A DNA stretch of 64,000 bases from Thermoanaerobaculales bacterium (GTDB taxonomy: Bacteria; Acidobacteriota; Thermoanaerobaculia; Thermoanaerobaculales; Sulfomarinibacteraceae), in NCBI GenBank assembly GCA_025456145.1, contig JALOLD010000005.1:1-64000 (forward strand), read 5' to 3'. Position numbers and translations under genes: made by a program. Below, piece after piece: positions 23,528 to 32,650 of the stretch. Below the pieces are notes generated by a model. The model made no database searches. It worked only from the letters and a program-made list of their open reading frames with translations, and was not told where the DNA came from. Numbering within the stretch: the first letter of the stretch is position 1; every line of letters begins with the position of its first letter.

Positions 23528-23758
23528 TCAGTCCTCGCCCTCTGCTTCCTCGAACTCGTTCGGCTCTCCGAGCATCAGACAGGCCGCATCGTACATCTGG
23601 CGTGCCGCCTTGGCCCCGTCCTGGAGCCCCTGAATCCGCTCCTTCACCTTGTCGAGCTCGACCTGGATCTGGCCTTCGAACTCCTCGAACTGGCTCTTGG
23701 TGCGCGAGCGCGCCTCCTGGTAGAAGCGGCGCTGTTCATCGGTCAGGGTAGATGGCAT
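23528..23758 (-). CDS. Small coiled-coil hypothetical protein
   Basis: 76 residues from the ATG at 23758, preceded by GGAGG with five bases spacing; an upstream TTG in the same frame would destroy that spacing. The composition is strongly helical and charged (Q, E, K, R), with no membrane helix or cysteine pair apart from one Cys, and it ends in an acidic tail. It starts 14 bases beyond the kinase stop at 23772, so it is probably co-transcribed with the kinase-TonB fusion. Not recognised; it may be a small partner or adaptor. Confidence 0.65.
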   Translation of the reverse strand: MPSTLTDEQRRFYQEARSRTKSQFEEFEGQIQVELDKVKERIQGLQDGAKAARQMYDAACLMLGEPNEFEEAEGED

Positions 23759-23771
23759 CTCATCCTCCAAG

Positions 23772-26543
23772 TCAGTTCAACGCGAGCCTGACGGTAATCC
23801 TCACCCACGCCCGGACCTTGACGCCGTTCTTGGTCGGCGGCCGGTAGCGCCACTGACGAACCGCGTCCTCGGTCGCCTTCTCGAAGCCGACCCCCTGGTG
23901 CGACACCTCGAGGATCCGGACATCCTCGACGCGACCGTCGATGCCGACCAGGAGCTGCGCCACCACCTCGCCGCTGATGCCGGCCCGCTGGGCGATCGGC
24001 GGGTAGACCGGGTCAACCCGGTGGAGCAACACCGGCGCCACGACGCCGGGTCCGGGTTCCACGATGTCTCCTTCGCGCACCGAGGGCGTCGGCGTCGCCG
24101 GAATCGGCGTCGCGGTCGGCGGCACCCGGGTGGGGGTCGGCGGCCGCGGCGTCGGGGTCGGCGGCGGAGTCGGCGTCTCGGTCGGTGTGGCGGTCGGCGT
24201 CGCGGTCGGCGGGAGGGGCGTCGGGGTCGGGAACTCCTTTTCGAGCCGGTCCCGGATCTCCTGCTCCTGCTTGGCCATCTCCGCCGCCGCAACCTCGCGC
24301 GCCCGCTCGAGCAGCTCCGCCTCGTCCATCAGCCCACCCTCGGCGCCCGGCTCGGGCGTCGGGGTCTGGTCGACCACCGCCGGCATGACCGGCGGCGTGG
24401 CCGCGTCGTCGCCGGCCGCGCCGGGTCCCAGGAAGAACCACCAGCCGCCGACTCCAGCCAGTACGACCGCGGCGGCGGCGACCCACACCCAGACCGGTAC
24501 CCCTCCTCGACGCGGGCTCCCGGCCTCGGCGAGGATCGGCGTAGCATCGACCGCGAGCTTGGCCGGCGCCGTGGGGGCGCCCACGGCCGGGGCTTTCGCC
24601 GGGGGCTCGACCGGTGGCCCGGCGGGCGGCCCGGCGGGCGGCCCGGCGGGTGGCGGGGTCGCGACGGTCGCCGCAGGGTAGTCGGTGATCTCGGCCCCCG
24701 ACTCGAGCTCGGCGATGAACCGCACCAGGGCGGCGGTGTCGGGCGCCCAGCCGTGGCGCTTGAGAACCGCCTCGGCGTCGCGCTGCAGGTCGAGCGCCGA
24801 CTGGTAACGCTCGGCCCGGTCCGGGCTCAGCGCCTTGAGGACGATCCGGTCGATCTCGGCGATCAGGCCCGGCACGACCGTCGACGGCGGATCGACCTTC
24901 GGGCTGCGCACCTGCTCGAGGATCGACAGCTCGGAGTCGCCGGTGAAGACCTTGTGCGCGGTCAGCATCTCGTAGAGCACGAGCCCCAGGGAGAAGACGT
25001 CCGACCGGTGGTCGATGTCCTTGCCCCACGCCTGCTCCGGCGACATGTACTGGAGCTTGCCCTTGAGCGCCCCGACCCGGGTGTGGGAGGCCTTCGATGC
25101 GGCCTTGGCAATGCCGAAGTCGCACAGCTTGATCTCGCCATCGGTCGAGATGAGCACGTTCTGGGGCGACACGTCCCGGTGGACCAGCCCGAGGTCGCGG
25201 TTGTCGAAGTCGCGTTTCTTGTGCGCGTAGTCGAGCGCCCCGGCGAGGAGGTTCGCGACGAAGAGCGCGAGCGGAACCGGGAACCGCTCGCCGCGCTCGC
25301 GGCACGCGTCGAGGATCGACCTCAGATCGCGGCCGCCGATGTACTCCATCGCGATGTAGTGCGACTTGTCGATCCGGCCGAGGTCGTAGATGTGGATGAT
25401 GTTGGGGTGATTGAGCTGGGCGGCGAGCTTGGCCTCGTCGACGAACATCTTGACGAACTCGTCGTTGCTCGTCAGGTGGGGCAGGATCCGCTTGATGGCG
25501 ACGGTCTTTTGGAAGCCCTCGAGACCGAGCATCCGTGCCTTGTAGACCTGGGCCATCCCGCCGGTCGCGATGTGCTCCTCGAGGACGTACTGGCCGAAGG
25601 TCGTGCCGGCCGGGACGGGCGTGGCGGTCGCCGAGGGTCGCGGCCCGCCAGCGCCGGTCGACGGCGACGGCGGCGGTGCGGCCTCGGCCGCCGGCGAGGG
25701 GGGCGGGCTCGGCGGCGTGGCAGCCGGGGCCGGCGGCGGCGGCGGTGCGGCCTCGACTCCCGGGGGCTTCGGCGGGCGTTTCCTGGCCGTCGTCGACGGC
25801 GAGATCTCGAGCCCGGCCAGGGTCTCCGAGAGCAGCGCGTCGACCTCGGTGCCGGACGACGATGGCCTGGTCGGCTTCGGCTTGCCGGCATCCTGCCGGG
25901 AGGTTCCCGCGAGGACGTCGGCCAGCGCCTCGTCGACGTTGGCGCCGCGGGTCGAGATGGGACGCGACGACCGGGCGGGCGGCGTCGAGTCGCCATCCCC
26001 GCGCTCGACGTCGGACAGGATCTCGGCGAACAGGTCCTTGGAGCTGAAGGAAGCTCCCCCGGCGCTGCCCTTGCGCAGCGCATCGAGGGTCTCCTGGGGC
26101 ACCGCCTGGGTGGTCAGGATCGCGGCCGCCCGGGAGAGCACATTCTCGACCGCGTCGCCGACCTCGACGGCGGTGAACGGCCGTCGCAGGAGGGCCTGGG
26201 CGCCGAGCTCCTCGGCGGCCTCTCTGCCGTCGCCGGCGACCGCCTCCGGGGTCAGGACGAGGATCGGCGTCGACCTGAGACCGGCCCGGGCGCGGAGCTG
26301 GGTGATCGCGTCGCCGACGCTGACCTGGGGAAGCTGCGAGGTGATGACGACCGCCTTGGGCTCGAAATGAGCGCAGATCTCGACGGCGCTGTTCAGATCA
26401 CCGGCAACCTCGAGCCGATGGCCGCGGCCCGCGAGAGCGGTCCGGACCGTCTCGACAGTCCTCGGTTCGTACTCGATGAGCAGGATGTTGGCGCTCAATG
26501 ACTCGTCCCTGATGGCTCCCCGGGTCGAAAGGCCCGCTCTCAT
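23772..26543 (-). CDS. Pseudo-receiver / Ser-Thr kinase / TonB C-terminal domain fusion
   Basis: 923 residues. Order: receiver-like domain (about 18-135) with the phospho-acceptor Asp replaced by T68, the acidic pair reduced to E24-Y25 and the Lys by Arg; a disordered Pro/Ala/Ser linker (about 140-310); a complete Hanks-type kinase (about 315-595) with glycine loop, VAIKR, VHRDVSPQN, CDFGIAK and YMSPEQAWG; another Pro-rich linker with repeated GPPA units; one membrane helix (about 683-705); a short coiled coil; a Pro/Thr-rich segment built of PTPT/PTAT units; and a TonB_C-like domain (about 836-923; VDPVYPP, GRVEDVRIL, AVRQWRYRP). The topology puts the kinase inside and the TonB-like domain in the periplasm. 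A kinase with its own energy-transducer domain is unusual. The start is the ATG at 26543; a TTG near the receiver is possible. Confidence 0.9.
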   Translation of the reverse strand: MRAGLSTRGAIRDESLSANILLIEYEPRTVETVRTALAGRGHRLEVAGDLNSAVEICAHFEPKAVVITSQLPQVSVGDAITQLRARAGLRSTPILVLTPEAVAGDGREAAEELGAQALLRRPFTAVEVGDAVENVLSRAAAILTTQAVPQETLDALRKGSAGGASFSSKDLFAEILSDVERGDGDSTPPARSSRPISTRGANVDEALADVLAGTSRQDAGKPKPTRPSSSGTEVDALLSETLAGLEISPSTTARKRPPKPPGVEAAPPPPPAPAATPPSPPPSPAAEAAPPPSPSTGAGGPRPSATATPVPAGTTFGQYVLEEHIATGGMAQVYKARMLGLEGFQKTVAIKRILPHLTSNDEFVKMFVDEAKLAAQLNHPNIIHIYDLGRIDKSHYIAMEYIGGRDLRSILDACRERGERFPVPLALFVANLLAGALDYAHKKRDFDNRDLGLVHRDVSPQNVLISTDGEIKLCDFGIAKAASKASHTRVGALKGKLQYMSPEQAWGKDIDHRSDVFSLGLVLYEMLTAHKVFTGDSELSILEQVRSPKVDPPSTVVPGLIAEIDRIVLKALSPDRAERYQSALDLQRDAEAVLKRHGWAPDTAALVRFIAELESGAEITDYPAATVATPPPAGPPAGPPAGPPVEPPAKAPAVGAPTAPAKLAVDATPILAEAGSPRRGGVPVWVWVAAAAVVLAGVGGWWFFLGPGAAGDDAATPPVMPAVVDQTPTPEPGAEGGLMDEAELLERAREVAAAEMAKQEQEIRDRLEKEFPTPTPLPPTATPTATPTETPTPPPTPTPRPPTPTRVPPTATPIPATPTPSVREGDIVEPGPGVVAPVLLHRVDPVYPPIAQRAGISGEVVAQLLVGIDGRVEDVRILEVSHQGVGFEKATEDAVRQWRYRPPTKNGVKVRAWVRITVRLALN

Positions 26544-26656: not shown

Positions 26657-27406
26657 ATGTCCGGCCACAACAAGTGGAGCACCATCAAGCACAAGAAGGG
26701 AAGGGCCGACGCCAAACGTGGGAAGATCTTCACCAAGCTGATCCGAGAGATCACCGTCTCAGCGCGCGAATCCGGCGGAGACGCCGACTCGAACCCGAGG
26801 CTGCGGGCCGCCGTCGCCGCCGCCAAGATCGCCAACATGCCAGCCGACAACATCAAACGGGCGATCCAGCGAGGGACCGGCGAGCTCCCCGGTGTGACCT
26901 ACGAGGAGGTCCACTACGAGGGCTATGGTCCGGGCGGCGTCGCCGTCCTGCTCCAGACCCTGACCGACAACCGCAACCGGACGACCCCCGAGGTCCGGCA
27001 CCTGTTCACCAAGCACGGCGGCAACCTCGGTGAGAACGGCTGCGTCTCGTGGCTGTTCAGCCGCCGGGGGCTGCTCCTGATCGAGCGGGCCGACGGTCTC
27101 AACGAGGACGCGCTCATGGAACGGGCCCTCGACGCCGGCGCCGAGGACCTCGACACCGACGACGAGGACTACTTCCGGGTCTACACCGCGGCCGAGGAGC
27201 TGCACGTCGTCAAGGAGCGGCTCGAGGAGTCCGGCGTCGAGGTGGCGAACGCGGAGATCGACATGGAGCCGTCGACGACCCAGAAGCTCGAGGGCAAGCA
27301 GGCGTCTCAGATGATCCGGCTCATGGAGGCCTTCGAGGACCACGACGACGTTCAGAACGTCTGGGCCAACTTCGACGTCGACGACGCCGACCTCGACGAC
27401 GCCTGA
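26657..27406 (+). CDS. yebC: YebC/PmpR-family protein
   Basis: 249 residues, normal family length. The N-terminus MSGHNKWSTIKHKKG is the family hallmark, with NMPADNIKRAI and YEGYGPGG further on. YebC proteins were first described as transcription regulators (PmpR), and YebC-type proteins are now also linked to translation through difficult proline stretches. That would suit a genome whose kinase and TonB proteins carry long Pro-rich linkers, though the link is speculative. Good Shine-Dalgarno GGGAGG. Followed by ruvC, a frequent bacterial pairing. Confidence 0.96.
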   Translation: MSGHNKWSTIKHKKGRADAKRGKIFTKLIREITVSARESGGDADSNPRLRAAVAAAKIANMPADNIKRAIQRGTGELPGVTYEEVHYEGYGPGGVAVLLQTLTDNRNRTTPEVRHLFTKHGGNLGENGCVSWLFSRRGLLLIERADGLNEDALMERALDAGAEDLDTDDEDYFRVYTAAEELHVVKERLEESGVEVANAEIDMEPSTTQKLEGKQASQMIRLMEAFEDHDDVQNVWANFDVDDADLDDA

Positions 27407-27456: not shown

Positions 27457-27948
27457 ATGCGCGTCCTCGGGGTAGACCCCGGCAGCCGGGTCACGGGCTG
27501 GGCCCTGGTGGTCAACCGGGGCAACCGGTCGCAGCTCGAACGCCTCGGCGTCGTGCGGCCGCGCGGCGCCGATCACCCCCTCCGACTCGCCGATTTGGAC
27601 CGGCACTTCACGGCCCTCGTTGCCGAGCTCGCGCCCGACTGTGCGGCCGTCGAGTCGGGCTTTACCGGGCGCAACCCGAGATCGGGCCTGATCCTGGCCG
27701 AAAGCCGGGGCGTCCTGCTCGCCGCGCTCGGCCGGGCAGGGGTTCCGGTCCACGCCTACACCCCGGCCCAGGTGAAGTCGGCGATGGTCGGTCACGGGAC
27801 CGCCGAGAAGCAGCAGGTCGCCTTCATGGTGGTGCGGCTCCTCGGGCTTGCCGCGCCGCCGTCGAGCGACGCGGCGGACGCCGTCGGCGTCGCCCTCACC
27901 CACCTCCACAGCACGCGGTTGACGGGGTCGCGCGGGTGCCGCCCCTGA
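27457..27948 (+). CDS. ruvC: Holliday junction resolvase RuvC
   Basis: 163 residues from the ATG at 27457, behind GGGAGG. A homodimeric nuclease that resolves Holliday junctions moved by RuvAB. The acidic catalytic residues are visible: D7 in GVDPGS, the Glu in AVESGF, and the Asp pair in SSDAADAVG near the C-terminus. Its partners ruvB and the end of a probable ruvA are 35 kb away at the end of this window, so the usual ruvCAB cluster is split. Confidence 0.95.
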   Translation: MRVLGVDPGSRVTGWALVVNRGNRSQLERLGVVRPRGADHPLRLADLDRHFTALVAELAPDCAAVESGFTGRNPRSGLILAESRGVLLAALGRAGVPVHAYTPAQVKSAMVGHGTAEKQQVAFMVVRLLGLAAPPSSDAADAVGVALTHLHSTRLTGSRGCRP

Positions 27949-28180: not shown

Positions 28181-28819
28181 GTGGGACAGGTAACAGATCT
28201 ATTCCGCCAGGGTGGAATCTTCATGTGGCCGTTGCTCTTCTTCTCGCTGCTCGCGCTGACGGTCATCGTCGAGCGCTTTATCGTGCTGAGCAAGGCGAAG
28301 ATCAACGTCAACGAGTTCCTGACCAAGATCCGCAAGGCGCTGCTCGTCAACCGCAACGTCAAGGAAGCCATCAAGGTCTGCGAGGACTACCGCGGGCCCG
28401 TGGCCTCGGTCATCAAGGCCGGTCTCCTGCGCTACGGCCACAGCCGTGACGACATCGAGAAGACGATCGAGAACGCCGCTCTGTACGAGCTCGATCGCCT
28501 CGAAAAGCGGTTGGGCGTGCTCGCCACGACCGCCAACGTCGCCCCGATGATCGGTTTTCTCGGGACCGTCAGCGGCATGATCAAGTCGTTCTCCACCCTC
28601 GCCGAGCAGGGTCTGACCAACCCGGCCGCGGTCGCCATCGGCATCTCCGAGGCGCTCATCACGACCGCCGCCGGCCTGATCATCGCGATCCCGGCCCAGC
28701 TCGGATACAACTGGTTCACGACGAAGATCACTCGCTTCGTTCGCGACATCGAGACCGCGTCCAACATGCTCTTGGAGACCTTCGCCGAGATGGACGGGAG
28801 CACCGAGAGCAAGGGCTGA
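28181..28819 (+). CDS. exbB: ExbB/TolQ-type proton channel subunit
   Basis: 212 residues, MotA/TolQ/ExbB family; GTG start with GAGGAGG upstream. Three membrane helices: about 12-32, and the long hairpin pair in the second half (MIGFLGTVSGMIKSF and ALITTAAGLIIAIPAQL). With ExbD it forms the inner-membrane pore whose proton flux energises TonB. First gene of exbB-exbD-exbD-tonB-DUF4388-TPR; the whole set probably powers an outer-membrane transporter or a gliding or envelope function. Confidence 0.93.
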   Translation: MGQVTDLFRQGGIFMWPLLFFSLLALTVIVERFIVLSKAKINVNEFLTKIRKALLVNRNVKEAIKVCEDYRGPVASVIKAGLLRYGHSRDDIEKTIENAALYELDRLEKRLGVLATTANVAPMIGFLGTVSGMIKSFSTLAEQGLTNPAAVAIGISEALITTAAGLIIAIPAQLGYNWFTTKITRFVRDIETASNMLLETFAEMDGSTESKG

Positions 28820-28834: not shown

Positions 28835-29278
28835 ATGGCACTCATCCGCGGCAGAGACCGAGGAACCGGGGCGCAGATCTTCACCGCCTCGATGGCGGAC
28901 ATCGTCTTCCTCCTCATCGTGTTCTTCGTCCTGACCTACAAGGTCGAGGTCGACAAGACCCAGATGAACCTCCCCGAGACCTGGATCCGCAAGAAGGTCC
29001 CCGAGAAGGCTGCGGTGATCTCGATCGCGCCCCCCGACAAGGGATCGACGATCCGGGTCTCGACCGGTGAGGAGATGGCGCTGCCGGTGAGCACCATCGA
29101 GGAGGTCATCACCTTCGCCTCGACCGAGGTCGCCAAGAACCCCGATCGCGAGTTCATCCTCAAGGCCGACGAGAACTCGCCCTACGCCCGCGTCGACGAG
29201 GTCTTGGACGCGCTCAAGCAGTCGAAGGTGAAGTACATCTTCCTGCTGTCCGAGCAGCTGACGGCGAGCGAGAAGTAG
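28835..29278 (+). CDS. exbD: ExbD/TolR-type subunit 1
   Basis: 147 residues: short cytoplasmic N-terminus, one membrane helix (about 21-36) carrying the proton-relay Asp D22 in SMADIVFLLIVFF, then a periplasmic domain. It starts 15 bases after exbB. A second, diverged ExbD follows immediately, so the two may form heterodimers or serve different pore assemblies. Confidence 0.92.
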   Translation: MALIRGRDRGTGAQIFTASMADIVFLLIVFFVLTYKVEVDKTQMNLPETWIRKKVPEKAAVISIAPPDKGSTIRVSTGEEMALPVSTIEEVITFASTEVAKNPDREFILKADENSPYARVDEVLDALKQSKVKYIFLLSEQLTASEK

Positions 29279-29292
29279 CCCGGAGGACGACG

Positions 29293-29790
29293 ATGAAGAT
29301 CAAGAAGAAGGAAATCGCCTCCGAGATCTTTACCGGCTCGATGGCCGACATCTCGTTCCTGCTGATCATCTACTTCATGATCACCTCGGCGTTCTCGGCG
29401 ACCCGCGGGCTCGACTTCGCACTGCCCGAGGAGACCGACACGCCGGAGATCAAGCAGGAGGACTCGATCGAGGTCCACGTCATGCCCGGCGGGGCGATCG
29501 AGGTCGACAAGAAGGGCCTGCCGCTCGACGGGCTGCTGCCGTACGTGCTCGAGAGGCTGCAGCAGAACCCCGAAAAACCGGTCATCCTGCGCACCGACCC
29601 GGAGGCCACCTACGGCGACATGATCACGGTCTTCGACCGTCTCCGACGCGCCAACGAGGAGTGGGTCGACGCCGACGGGAACGCCAAGTACACGGACGTC
29701 AACGGCAACCCGTTGACCGAGATCAAGACCATCTCGATCCCGACCCAGCGGGAGATCGAGAACATCTGGAACCTTTTGGGCATGGGGTGA
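29293..29790 (+). CDS. exbD: ExbD/TolR-type subunit 2
   Basis: 165 residues with one membrane helix carrying the conserved Asp D19 in SMADISFLLIIYF and a periplasmic domain longer than that of the first copy; the insertion lies in its C-terminal half (EEWVDADGNAKYTDVNG). The helix and Asp are conserved, so it is likely functional. Fifteen bases separate it from the first exbD. Tandem diverged ExbD genes are frequent in Acidobacteriota and deltaproteobacteria-type TonB loci. Confidence 0.9.
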   Translation: MKIKKKEIASEIFTGSMADISFLLIIYFMITSAFSATRGLDFALPEETDTPEIKQEDSIEVHVMPGGAIEVDKKGLPLDGLLPYVLERLQQNPEKPVILRTDPEATYGDMITVFDRLRRANEEWVDADGNAKYTDVNGNPLTEIKTISIPTQREIENIWNLLGMG

Positions 29791-29800
29791 GGAGGACTGC

Positions 29801-30523
29801 ATGACCGAGACGCCGAAAACCGCCTCCAAGGCGCCCGAGCCCCAGCTCAAGCCGACGGTCATCGAGATCATCGCGGCCGAGGAGCGCCAGGACAAGAAGC
29901 TCACCCGCATCGCGATGGTCGTCGCGGTGGTCGTCCACGTCTTCATCTTCGCTTTCCACTGGCCGACCTTCGCCGGCGGGCTCAAGGACGCGACCGAGAA
30001 GAAGACCAAGATCTACGTGGTCAAGCAGGTCAAGTTCCAGCAGCCGCCCCAGCAGGAGCTCCAGCAGATCCCGAAGCCGAAGAGCAAGAAGGTGCCGATC
30101 CCAGACCCGACCCCCGACGAGCCGGAGCCGATCCGCGACGAGGAGCCAGACGAAGACATCGAGTTCATCCCGGACGACAACCTCGTCCTCGGGATCCCGG
30201 ACGCTCCACCCCCTCCCGAGCCGGAGGGCCCGGTCCGCTTCGTCGTCGGCGGCAACATCACCGAGCCAGTGAAGCTCAGCGGACCGAACCCGGTCTACCC
30301 GGAGGCCGCGCGGCGCGCGCGGATCCAGGGAGTGGTCGTCCTCGAGTGCACGATCGGCAAGGACGGCACCGTGCGCGAGGTCAAGGTCCTGCGACCGCTG
30401 CCGCTCGGCCTCACCGAGGCGGCGATCGACGCGGTAACCAAGTGGAAGTTCGAGCCATCGACGCTCAACGGCAAGCCGGTGGAGGTGCTCTACATCCTCA
30501 CTGTACGGTTCAACCTGCAGTAG
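29801..30523 (+). CDS. tonB: TonB-family energy transducer
   Basis: 240 residues: N-terminal cytoplasmic stretch of about 33, one membrane helix (about 35-54), a periplasmic linker rich in Pro, Lys and Glu (about 60-145), and a C-terminal TonB domain (about 150-240) with NPVYPEAARRARIQG and VTKWKFEPS. It transmits the ExbBD force to outer-membrane receptors. The C-terminal domain is clearly related to the one fused to the kinase at 23772-26543, so both may recognise similar partners. Confidence 0.93.
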   Translation: MTETPKTASKAPEPQLKPTVIEIIAAEERQDKKLTRIAMVVAVVVHVFIFAFHWPTFAGGLKDATEKKTKIYVVKQVKFQQPPQQELQQIPKPKSKKVPIPDPTPDEPEPIRDEEPDEDIEFIPDDNLVLGIPDAPPPPEPEGPVRFVVGGNITEPVKLSGPNPVYPEAARRARIQGVVVLECTIGKDGTVREVKVLRPLPLGLTEAAIDAVTKWKFEPSTLNGKPVEVLYILTVRFNLQ

Positions 30524-30542: not shown

Positions 30543-31412
30543 ATGGCGTTGCAGGGGTCTCTCTCCGAGCTCTCGCTGGCTGACGTGATCCAGATGGTCA
30601 GCGTCTCCGGGAAGACCGGCGTATTCGAGGTCCGTCGCCATGGCGAGATCGGCAGGATCTTCCTGCGCGACGGTCAGATCGTCGACGCCGCGGTCGCCGC
30701 GCTGCGCGGCGACAACGCGGTCTACGAGATGGCGATCTGGTCGGAGGGCGAGTTCAGCTTCAAGCCCGGCGAGGAGACCGACACGGTCACCATCCACCTG
30801 TCGAACGCGAACCTGATGATGGAGGCGGCGCGCCGCCTCGACGAGTGGCGGGTGCTGTCGCGCAAGGTCCCGTCCCTCGACCTCGTGCCCTTCTTCACCT
30901 CGCGGGATCATCACGACCAGGTGACGCTGAGCCCGCACGAGTGGATCCTGGTGACCCGCATCGACAACGAGCACAGCATCGAGGCGATCGCCGAGCAGCT
31001 CCACTGGTCGGCCTTCGACGTGTCGAAGCTGCTGTTCGGGATGATCACCTCTGGCCTCGTCGCGCTGCGCTCGAAGGACGACGATCCGGTCTCCTCGGGC
31101 GGGCCGAAGGGACCGAGCACAGTGACGCTCATCGGTCTCGCCAGCCGGATCCGGACGGTGGCTCTCGGCGTGGTCGGGACGAGCGGCGAGCACACCATCG
31201 ACAAGCAGTTCGCGGCCGCCCGGACCCTCATCGAGCGAGGGGCCGGGTTCGACGCCATCCGAACCATGGTCGAGCAGCACAGCAAGGCGATCTCGCTGCT
31301 CAAGGGCGCCGACATCGCCGCCATGTTCGACGAGCAAGTCCGACCGCTGCTCGGGAGCGCCGAGCGCGCCCCCACGACGGCGGGTAACACCCAGGGAGGC
31401 AATGTCTCATGA
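30543..31412 (+). CDS. DUF4388 (PATAN-type) domain protein
   Basis: 289 residues. The N-terminal 100 residues match the DUF4388/PATAN pattern (MALQGSLSELSLADVIQM, SGKTGVFEV, GRIFLRDGQIVDA), a domain common in gliding and signalling proteins of myxobacteria and Acidobacteriota. The remainder is mostly helical without a recognised fold. It is 20 bases after tonB and overlaps the TPR gene by four bases, so it belongs to this operon and may tie the TonB motor to an intracellular signalling protein. Function unknown. Confidence 0.85.
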   Translation: MALQGSLSELSLADVIQMVSVSGKTGVFEVRRHGEIGRIFLRDGQIVDAAVAALRGDNAVYEMAIWSEGEFSFKPGEETDTVTIHLSNANLMMEAARRLDEWRVLSRKVPSLDLVPFFTSRDHHDQVTLSPHEWILVTRIDNEHSIEAIAEQLHWSAFDVSKLLFGMITSGLVALRSKDDDPVSSGGPKGPSTVTLIGLASRIRTVALGVVGTSGEHTIDKQFAAARTLIERGAGFDAIRTMVEQHSKAISLLKGADIAAMFDEQVRPLLGSAERAPTTAGNTQGGNVS

Positions 31413-32650
31413 AATCGAACCCGCGCCGGCTTCTCACCGTCATCGCGGTCGTCATCGCGATCGGCTGGCTCCAACCCGTCTTTGCGGAGTGGAACAAGGG
31501 CCTCGACGCTTACAAGGCGAACGACTTCGCGACCGCGGCGAGAGAGTTCGAGGAGGTCACCAAGACCAACCCGGGCTACGTCGGCGGTTACTACATGCTC
31601 GGTCTGAGCCAACGGGCGCAGAACAACCTGTCGGCGGCTCTCGGTAACCTGCGCAAGGCGGTCGAGCTCGATGCCGCCGGCGAAAAGCCCGACCCTCGCT
31701 ACAGCATCGCGCTGGCCCAGGCGCTCAACCAGGCCAAGCAGTACAACGAGGCCTACTCCTCGCTCAAGAAGTTCGACTTCGCGAGCCTCCCGGCGAGCTA
31801 TCGGACAAGCTACGCGCTGCTCTTCGCCAACGCCGCCAACGAGACCAACCGGTCGAACGAGGCGGTGAGCATGCTCAACGCCCAGATCCGGGTCGACTCG
31901 TCCAACGCCTCGCTCTACCAGGCCCTCGGCGTCGCCCAGGATGCGCTCGGCAGCGACCGGGAGGCCTTCGCGGCCTTCAAGCGAGCCTTCGAGCTCGACC
32001 CGAAGGACCAGGCGAGCGGCCGCTACGCCATCCGGTCCGCGATCGCCGCGGCGCGTCGCGCCTCGGCGGCCGCCGACAAGTCGCGCTACTACACCGAGGC
32101 CGCCCAGATCGCCGAGCGGCTCGCCGCAGCGAGCCCGAGCTTCGAGCACAACCTCTACGCCGGCGAGACATGGCTCGGCGCCAAGCAGTACTCGAAGGCG
32201 CTGAGCTGGTTCGAGAAGGCGCGGGCCCAGCAGAGCCGCAACGCTCTGGTCTACTACTACATCGGCCAGAGCTACACCTCGCTCGACCAGTACTCCGACG
32301 CGCTGTCGTCGCTCCAGCAGGCGCTGTCCCTCAACAGCGACGCCGATCTGCGCAAGAAGATCTACAACCAGATGGGCTACGTTCACGAGAAGAACAAGGA
32401 CTTCGCCAAGGCCAAGCAGGCCTATCTCGAGGCCGGGAACACCACCCAGGCGAACGCGATGGACAGCAAGGCCGAGGCGAGGGCCGGCAACCTCGAGCAC
32501 GAGAAGCAGTGCAAGGACTTCAAGCTCAAGATCGACGCCCTCGCCCTCCAGGCCGAGGAGTTCGAGAAGCTCGGCGACATGGAAAGCGCCAAGCAGCTGC
32601 GCGACCAGCTCGTCATGCTCCAGCGGCAGTACGCCGAGACCTGCGGCTGA
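31409..32650 (+). CDS. Secreted tetratricopeptide-repeat protein
   Basis: 413 residues. N-terminal signal peptide (hydrophobic stretch about 8-27, cleavage near VFAEW), then about eight TPR units spanning nearly the whole mature chain, ending in a charged helical tail with a Cys near the end. Likely a periplasmic scaffold. It is the last gene of the ExbBD-TonB operon, followed by a strong terminator, which suggests a structural or assembly role for whatever the TonB system drives. Confidence 0.88.
   Translation: MKSNPRRLLTVIAVVIAIGWLQPVFAEWNKGLDAYKANDFATAAREFEEVTKTNPGYVGGYYMLGLSQRAQNNLSAALGNLRKAVELDAAGEKPDPRYSIALAQALNQAKQYNEAYSSLKKFDFASLPASYRTSYALLFANAANETNRSNEAVSMLNAQIRVDSSNASLYQALGVAQDALGSDREAFAAFKRAFELDPKDQASGRYAIRSAIAAARRASAAADKSRYYTEAAQIAERLAAASPSFEHNLYAGETWLGAKQYSKALSWFEKARAQQSRNALVYYYIGQSYTSLDQYSDALSSLQQALSLNSDADLRKKIYNQMGYVHEKNKDFAKAKQAYLEAGNTTQANAMDSKAEARAGNLEHEKQCKDFKLKIDALALQAEEFEKLGDMESAKQLRDQLVMLQRQYAETCG

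Follow-up and report, generated by a model that had tools for sequence, protein, structure and literature searches.

A kinase-TonB fusion protein of Acidobacteriota and its small partner gene

Most of what is known about receptor kinases in bacteria comes from Gram-positive and actinobacterial species, in which they sense the cell wall. The PknB-type PASTA receptor kinases, e.g., PknB of Mycobacterium tuberculosis and Stk1 of Staphylococcus aureus, are composed of a Hanks-type kinase, one membrane helix and an extracytoplasmic domain thereafter. TonB energy transducers such as those of Escherichia coli and Pseudomonas feature a single N-in helix, a Pro-rich periplasmic spacer and the TonB C-terminal domain (TonB_C), and the His in their membrane helix (SHLS motif), which touches ExbB, is indispensable for both Ton and Tol activity (PMC12215075). 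A related layout is that of GltG (PglI) of Myxococcus xanthus, which belongs to the gliding machine with AglRQS and carries a cytoplasmic signalling domain (FHA), a membrane helix and TonB_C (PMC3169522). Here, we describe a protein of Acidobacteriota which shares parts with each of these systems.

The kinase-TonB fusion gene (23772..26543, minus strand) lies in a window of 64,000 nucleotides from a Thermoanaerobaculales bacterium, and an open reading frame check of this window gave a frame of 923 codons without interruption over exactly this span. The encoded protein features, in this order, a pseudo-receiver, a PknB-like kinase, one membrane helix, a coiled coil, a Pro/Thr stalk and TonB_C. 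A sequence-only reading had proposed that three domains are joined in one protein, and Pfam matched all of them (Response_reg just under its cut-off, Pkinase and TonB_C); the T68 pseudo-receiver, the full kinase, the membrane helix and the long Pro/Thr spacer of that reading were likewise borne out. A frame error or two separate genes are ruled out by the single frame and by full-length homologues with the same tail, and since the same complete architecture is found in other members of the class, the fusion is not due to chance. Orthologues have a Met where the 923-aa protein has L16 (TTG codon), and translation consequently probably starts near 26498, which would give a product of about 908 aa. 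In an AlphaFold2 model based on 36 sequences, the receiver, most of the kinase and TonB_C were predicted with high confidence, while the linkers were disordered.

The pseudo-receiver (aa 20-132; 26148..26486, minus strand) scored 29.4 bits against a Response_reg cut-off of 30.2 (E 9.7e-7), and the receiver fold is supported by AlphaFold2, with a pLDDT mostly above 90 and alternating strands and helices. The earlier assignment of T68 to the phospho-Asp position stands and has to be amended by the loss of the acid pair, which is replaced by E24-Y25, so that both the phospho-acceptor Asp and the acid pair of a response regulator are missing. Among about 70 homologues, the Asp position is occupied by T, S, N or other residues and by Asp in only three, and a phospho-relay via the receiver is ruled out by this family-wide loss. 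The linker towards the kinase contains conserved linear motifs, namely motif A (SKDLFAEIL; 25998..26048, minus strand; homologue alignment), in which S168 and F172 are invariant in A2, and two copies of motif B, DEALADVLAGT (25902..25940, minus strand; homologue comparison) and DALLSETLAGL (25809..25853, minus strand; homologue alignment). Motifs of the form (S/T)xDLFGDxL and DxxLSxTLxGL are recurrent in the N-terminal linkers of kinase-bearing members.

The Hanks-type kinase domain (aa 319-579; 24807..25589, minus strand; Pfam Pkinase E 4.8e-39) contains all catalytic residues, including the VAIK Lys, the alpha-C Glu, HRD, Asn and DFG (K351, E370, D457, N462 and D475). These residues are invariant among about 80 homologues, a conservation somewhat favoured by selection, as two kinase peptides served as patterns of the homologue scan; the phylum survey via the small gene described below is without this bias. 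Judged by these residues, the fusion kinase looks like a working enzyme. A structure search with the full model found PknB nearest (Z 26, 38–40% identity) and its listing was filled by kinases; the identity of receiver and TonB_C rests on Pfam, NCBIfam, a PDB sequence search and AlphaFold2. PASTA repeats were not detected in the fusion by the Pfam scan, and the NCBIfam PASTA-kinase model reached 286.9 bits, below its 450-bit cut-off. In the genome of the window (4.55-Mb assembly), 43 Pkinase matches were counted, representing some 35 or more genes for Ser/Thr kinases.

Behind the kinase, sequence and AlphaFold2 place a single transmembrane helix without His (aa 685-704; 24432..24491, minus strand), and with an N-in topology about 680 residues would be cytoplasmic. 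A second helix in the AlphaFold2 model, a juxtamembrane periplasmic helix and probable coiled coil (aa 741-770; 24234..24323, minus strand), is followed by the Pro/Thr-rich stalk (aa 771-835; 24039..24233, minus strand) and TonB_C (aa 845-919; 23787..24011, minus strand). In line with its assignment from the letters alone, the tail matches Pfam TonB_C (PF03544) well over the cut-off (E 1.6e-17, 64 bits vs 24.6), as well as NCBIfam TIGR01352 (“TonB family protein”), and the domain is also supported by AlphaFold2; all significant tail matches in the PDB sequence search were TonB chains, 2gsk and 2grx among them. This tail keeps the YP motif of TonB_C, which is lost in several homologues (L039, L042, L046 and L051), and the median identity among homologues amounts to 35% for the tail vs 65% for the kinase.

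Directly 3′ of the fusion, 13 nt downstream, we found a small gene which was absent from the sequence-only reading (23528..23758, minus strand). It has a GGAGG ribosome-binding site and encodes a 76-aa protein predicted as one long helix. This protein matches neither Pfam nor NCBIfam families above their cut-offs, and Foldseek gave no PDB fold match; a PDB profile search gave coiled-coil-level sequence matches only. A gene of this kind is found on the same strand in all 73 loci with downstream sequence, a count which is partly circular, as the profile had been seeded with part of these sequences. Of 297 Acidobacteriota genomes covered by a profile search, 109 encode it, spread over 60 of 167 genera and including assemblies of one or two contigs; within the class of the window, it occurs everywhere sampled bar one family (12 genomes). 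The small helical protein could represent a dedicated cytoplasmic partner of the fusion, which probably acts at the conserved linear motifs.

The kinase-TonB fusion is an old, conserved protein of Acidobacteriota. Scanning contigs of bacterial genomes, we obtained 80 loci; all, or almost all, of them stem from Acidobacteriota metagenome assemblies, mostly of Thermoanaerobaculia and relatives. Full-length homologues of about 900–1300 aa are common, and a plasmid search gave matches to the kinase part only. The TonB_C tail is present in 68 of the 73 homologues uncut by a contig end and missing in five (L062, L072, L081, L082 and L084). In the phylum survey started from the small gene alone, 39 of 40 inspected loci have it behind a gene of the fusion's kind (exception: L162), and some of these genes are kinase-TonB fusions. 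Others encode no kinase and consist either of a receiver-like protein, a membrane helix and TonB_C (L161, L163, L169, L177 and L182), or of a short motif region, a helix and TonB_C (L164–L168 and L186); the kinase-less receivers have Glu at the Asp position. A tail-less type (L158, L159, L178, L179 and L187) features a tail-anchored kinase, whose sequence stops about four residues or fewer behind the membrane helix, with the small gene next to it, and L174 carries a kinase without evident helix, likewise next to the small gene. The tails of kinase-bearing and kinase-less members interleave in the tree. Across the phylum, kinase and TonB_C are each optional and not obligatorily coupled. In five genomes without the small gene, we found no TonB_C protein with a detectable kinase relative of the fusion, and one with a receiver-like region.

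TonB_C tails and similar layouts also occur elsewhere in this genome. About 110 kb away on the same contig, a paralogue of similar layout with membrane helix, coiled coil and TonB_C is encoded (L124:6775-8793, minus strand), whose kinase-like part stays below the Pfam cut-off and has neither HRD nor DFG, i.e., represents a pseudokinase; another family has a similar protein in L212. A BlaR1/M56-like membrane protein that carries a TonB_C tail is encoded at the edge of a small contig (L002:1-1737, plus strand).

The neighbourhood of the fusion raises the question of a motor. As pointed out before, an exb-tonB operon is located on the other strand, with exbB (28181..28819, plus strand; Pfam MotA_ExbB) starting 1.6 kb from the 5′ end of the fusion, and homologues of yebC (26657..27406, plus strand; the divergent neighbour) and ruvC (27457..27948, plus strand), both named by reading, in between. 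The genes exbB, exbD and tonB were recognized correctly; the operon contains, however, two copies of exbD (28835..29278 and 29293..29790, plus strand; Pfam), followed by a conventional tonB with His in its membrane helix (29801..30523, plus strand; Pfam and helix inspection). Behind tonB, a DUF4388 (PATAN-type) protein (30543..31412, plus strand; Pfam) and a TPR protein (31409..32650, plus strand; Pfam) are encoded, and in many loci without exbBD, DUF4388 alone stays near yebC and the kinase. The arrangement exbB-exbD-exbD-tonB is found divergently upstream of the fusion in 19 of the 45 loci whose sequence extends far enough. Since yebC (29 of 45 loci) and the downstream accD (28 of 64) are kept too, this adjacency partly reflects a general conservation of gene order.

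The fusion differs from an energy transducer in its membrane helix. All 22 conventional TonBs inspected (21 operon-type TonBs from the loci and a second TonB of the window's genome), including that of the neighbouring operon, have the His, compared with none of about 75 kinase-fusion helices examined. Among 28 helices of the wider phylum set, one was flagged (L166, N-K-H-K), and its His precedes the helix instead of lying inside. In the tail tree, the fused tails are placed apart from the operon TonB, whose group has a support of 100/99, while many other forks are unresolved due to the shortness of the domain; a recent capture of the tail of the adjacent tonB is ruled out by the position of the fused tails outside this clade. 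Since the membrane His is missing, the tail lineages are separate and the operon is adjacent in only 19 of 45 loci, ExbBD most likely does not drive the fusion tail, which would act as a passive probe. The idea of a TonB that is energised by the neighbouring ExbBD and regulated by a kinase of its own, as offered by the sequence-only reading, is consequently unsupported. It could refer to a true TonB C-terminal domain and to the retained operon close by, but this operon already has its own TonB, the synteny tracks general gene order and the His is missing throughout, and we regard it as very improbable.

The other option raised from the sequence, a cytoplasmic kinase coupled to outer-membrane contact, remains plausible. 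Tentatively, and at somewhat less than even confidence, we favour a Ser/Thr kinase which is anchored in the inner membrane by a single pass and monitors the state of the envelope, with TonB_C as a passive probe not driven by ExbBD. Pseudo-receiver and kinase would reside in the cytoplasm and one helix would span the membrane, with coiled coil and Pro/Thr stalk extending the TonB-type domain outwards. There, its binding partner could be periplasmic or belong to the outer membrane, the simplest case being a beta-strand, e.g., a TonB box. Binding or tension may alter the pairing of the coiled coil and thereby the activity of kinase pairs, and the small helical protein could assist the kinase response. 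Topology, ligand, signalling direction, dimer switch and the role of the partner are what we infer. Possible receptor contacts for the tail exist, since the genome of the window has 15 plug-domain matches of TonB-dependent receptors; it also encodes three ExbB homologues. The variable tail (in comparison to the kinase), the tail-less and kinase-less relatives and the loss of YP in several homologues speak against this envelope-sensor reading.

The strongest rival draws on the fact that not all members across the phylum have a kinase: the protein may instead work like GltG, as a structural adaptor within an envelope-spanning machine. Its cytoplasmic modules would then serve as docking sites for partners, TonB_C would hook onto periplasmic or outer-membrane components, and the kinase would be accessory. 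Members without a kinase retain the membrane helix, TonB_C and the small partner along with the receiver-like or linker region, and their tails interleave with those of kinase-bearing members; GltG itself (FHA and TonB_C) was the candidate partner of AglR (PMC3169522), and the neighbouring operon offers one ExbB, two ExbDs, a DUF4388 protein and a TPR protein. However, a kinase with invariant catalytic residues is kept in the window's class, the motor operon is adjacent in fewer than half of the loci and no FHA domain was found in the fusion by the Pfam scan, so that we consider the adaptor rather unlikely. Still less probable appears a TonB_C which only dimerises or binds peptidoglycan, like the PASTA repeats of PknB, without any outer-membrane receptor. 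PknB as the nearest kinase and a TonB_C that is variable and in some lineages partly degenerate would fit such a role, whereas the YP motif of the window's tail and its overall closeness to receptor-bound TonB chains, as well as the lack of a peptidoglycan-binding domain in the Pfam scan of the protein, argue against it.

Extended to the phylum, the envelope-sensor reading would describe a signalling module of Acidobacteriota composed of pseudo-receiver, docking motifs, an optional kinase, a helix, an optional stalked TonB and an obligatory small partner, whose motorless TonB domain is a sensor telling the kinase of outer-membrane receptor engagement; in this breadth, we regard it as doubtful. 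If true, cytoplasmic Ser/Thr phosphorylation would be linked to the diderm outer membrane, and TonB domains could serve as sensors instead of force transmitters. The small partner, moreover, offers an entry point for genetic work and pull-downs in a large phylum of environmental bacteria whose signalling has been little studied.

Kinase domain, pseudo-receiver and TonB_C are each already known, as are TonB_C fusions to signalling proteins (BlaR1-type, GltG). In comparison to the PASTA receptor kinases, with which it shares the order of kinase, helix and outer domain, the fusion has a stalked TonB_C in place of PASTA, an N-terminal pseudo-receiver, a diderm host and a dedicated small partner gene. 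With the TonB energy transducer, including that of the neighbouring operon, it has the C-terminal domain, the Pro-rich spacer and, presumably, the N-in single helix in common, but it lacks the essential His, carries the kinase among its long cytoplasmic part and belongs to a separate tail lineage. Like GltG, it features a cytoplasmic signalling region and a helix followed by a periplasmic TonB_C, with pseudo-receiver and kinase instead of FHA. The BlaR1/M56-TonB_C fusion of the same genome also represents a membrane signalling protein to which TonB_C was added; in contrast, it is a polytopic metallopeptidase-type sensor (named by reading) without kinase, and its tail groups with conventional TonB. 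We found no description of a kinase-TonB_C fusion with an obligate small partner in the open-access literature, and one may exist elsewhere. New in relation to these systems is a conserved receptor kinase with TonB_C as its outer part, encoded next to an obligate small partner.
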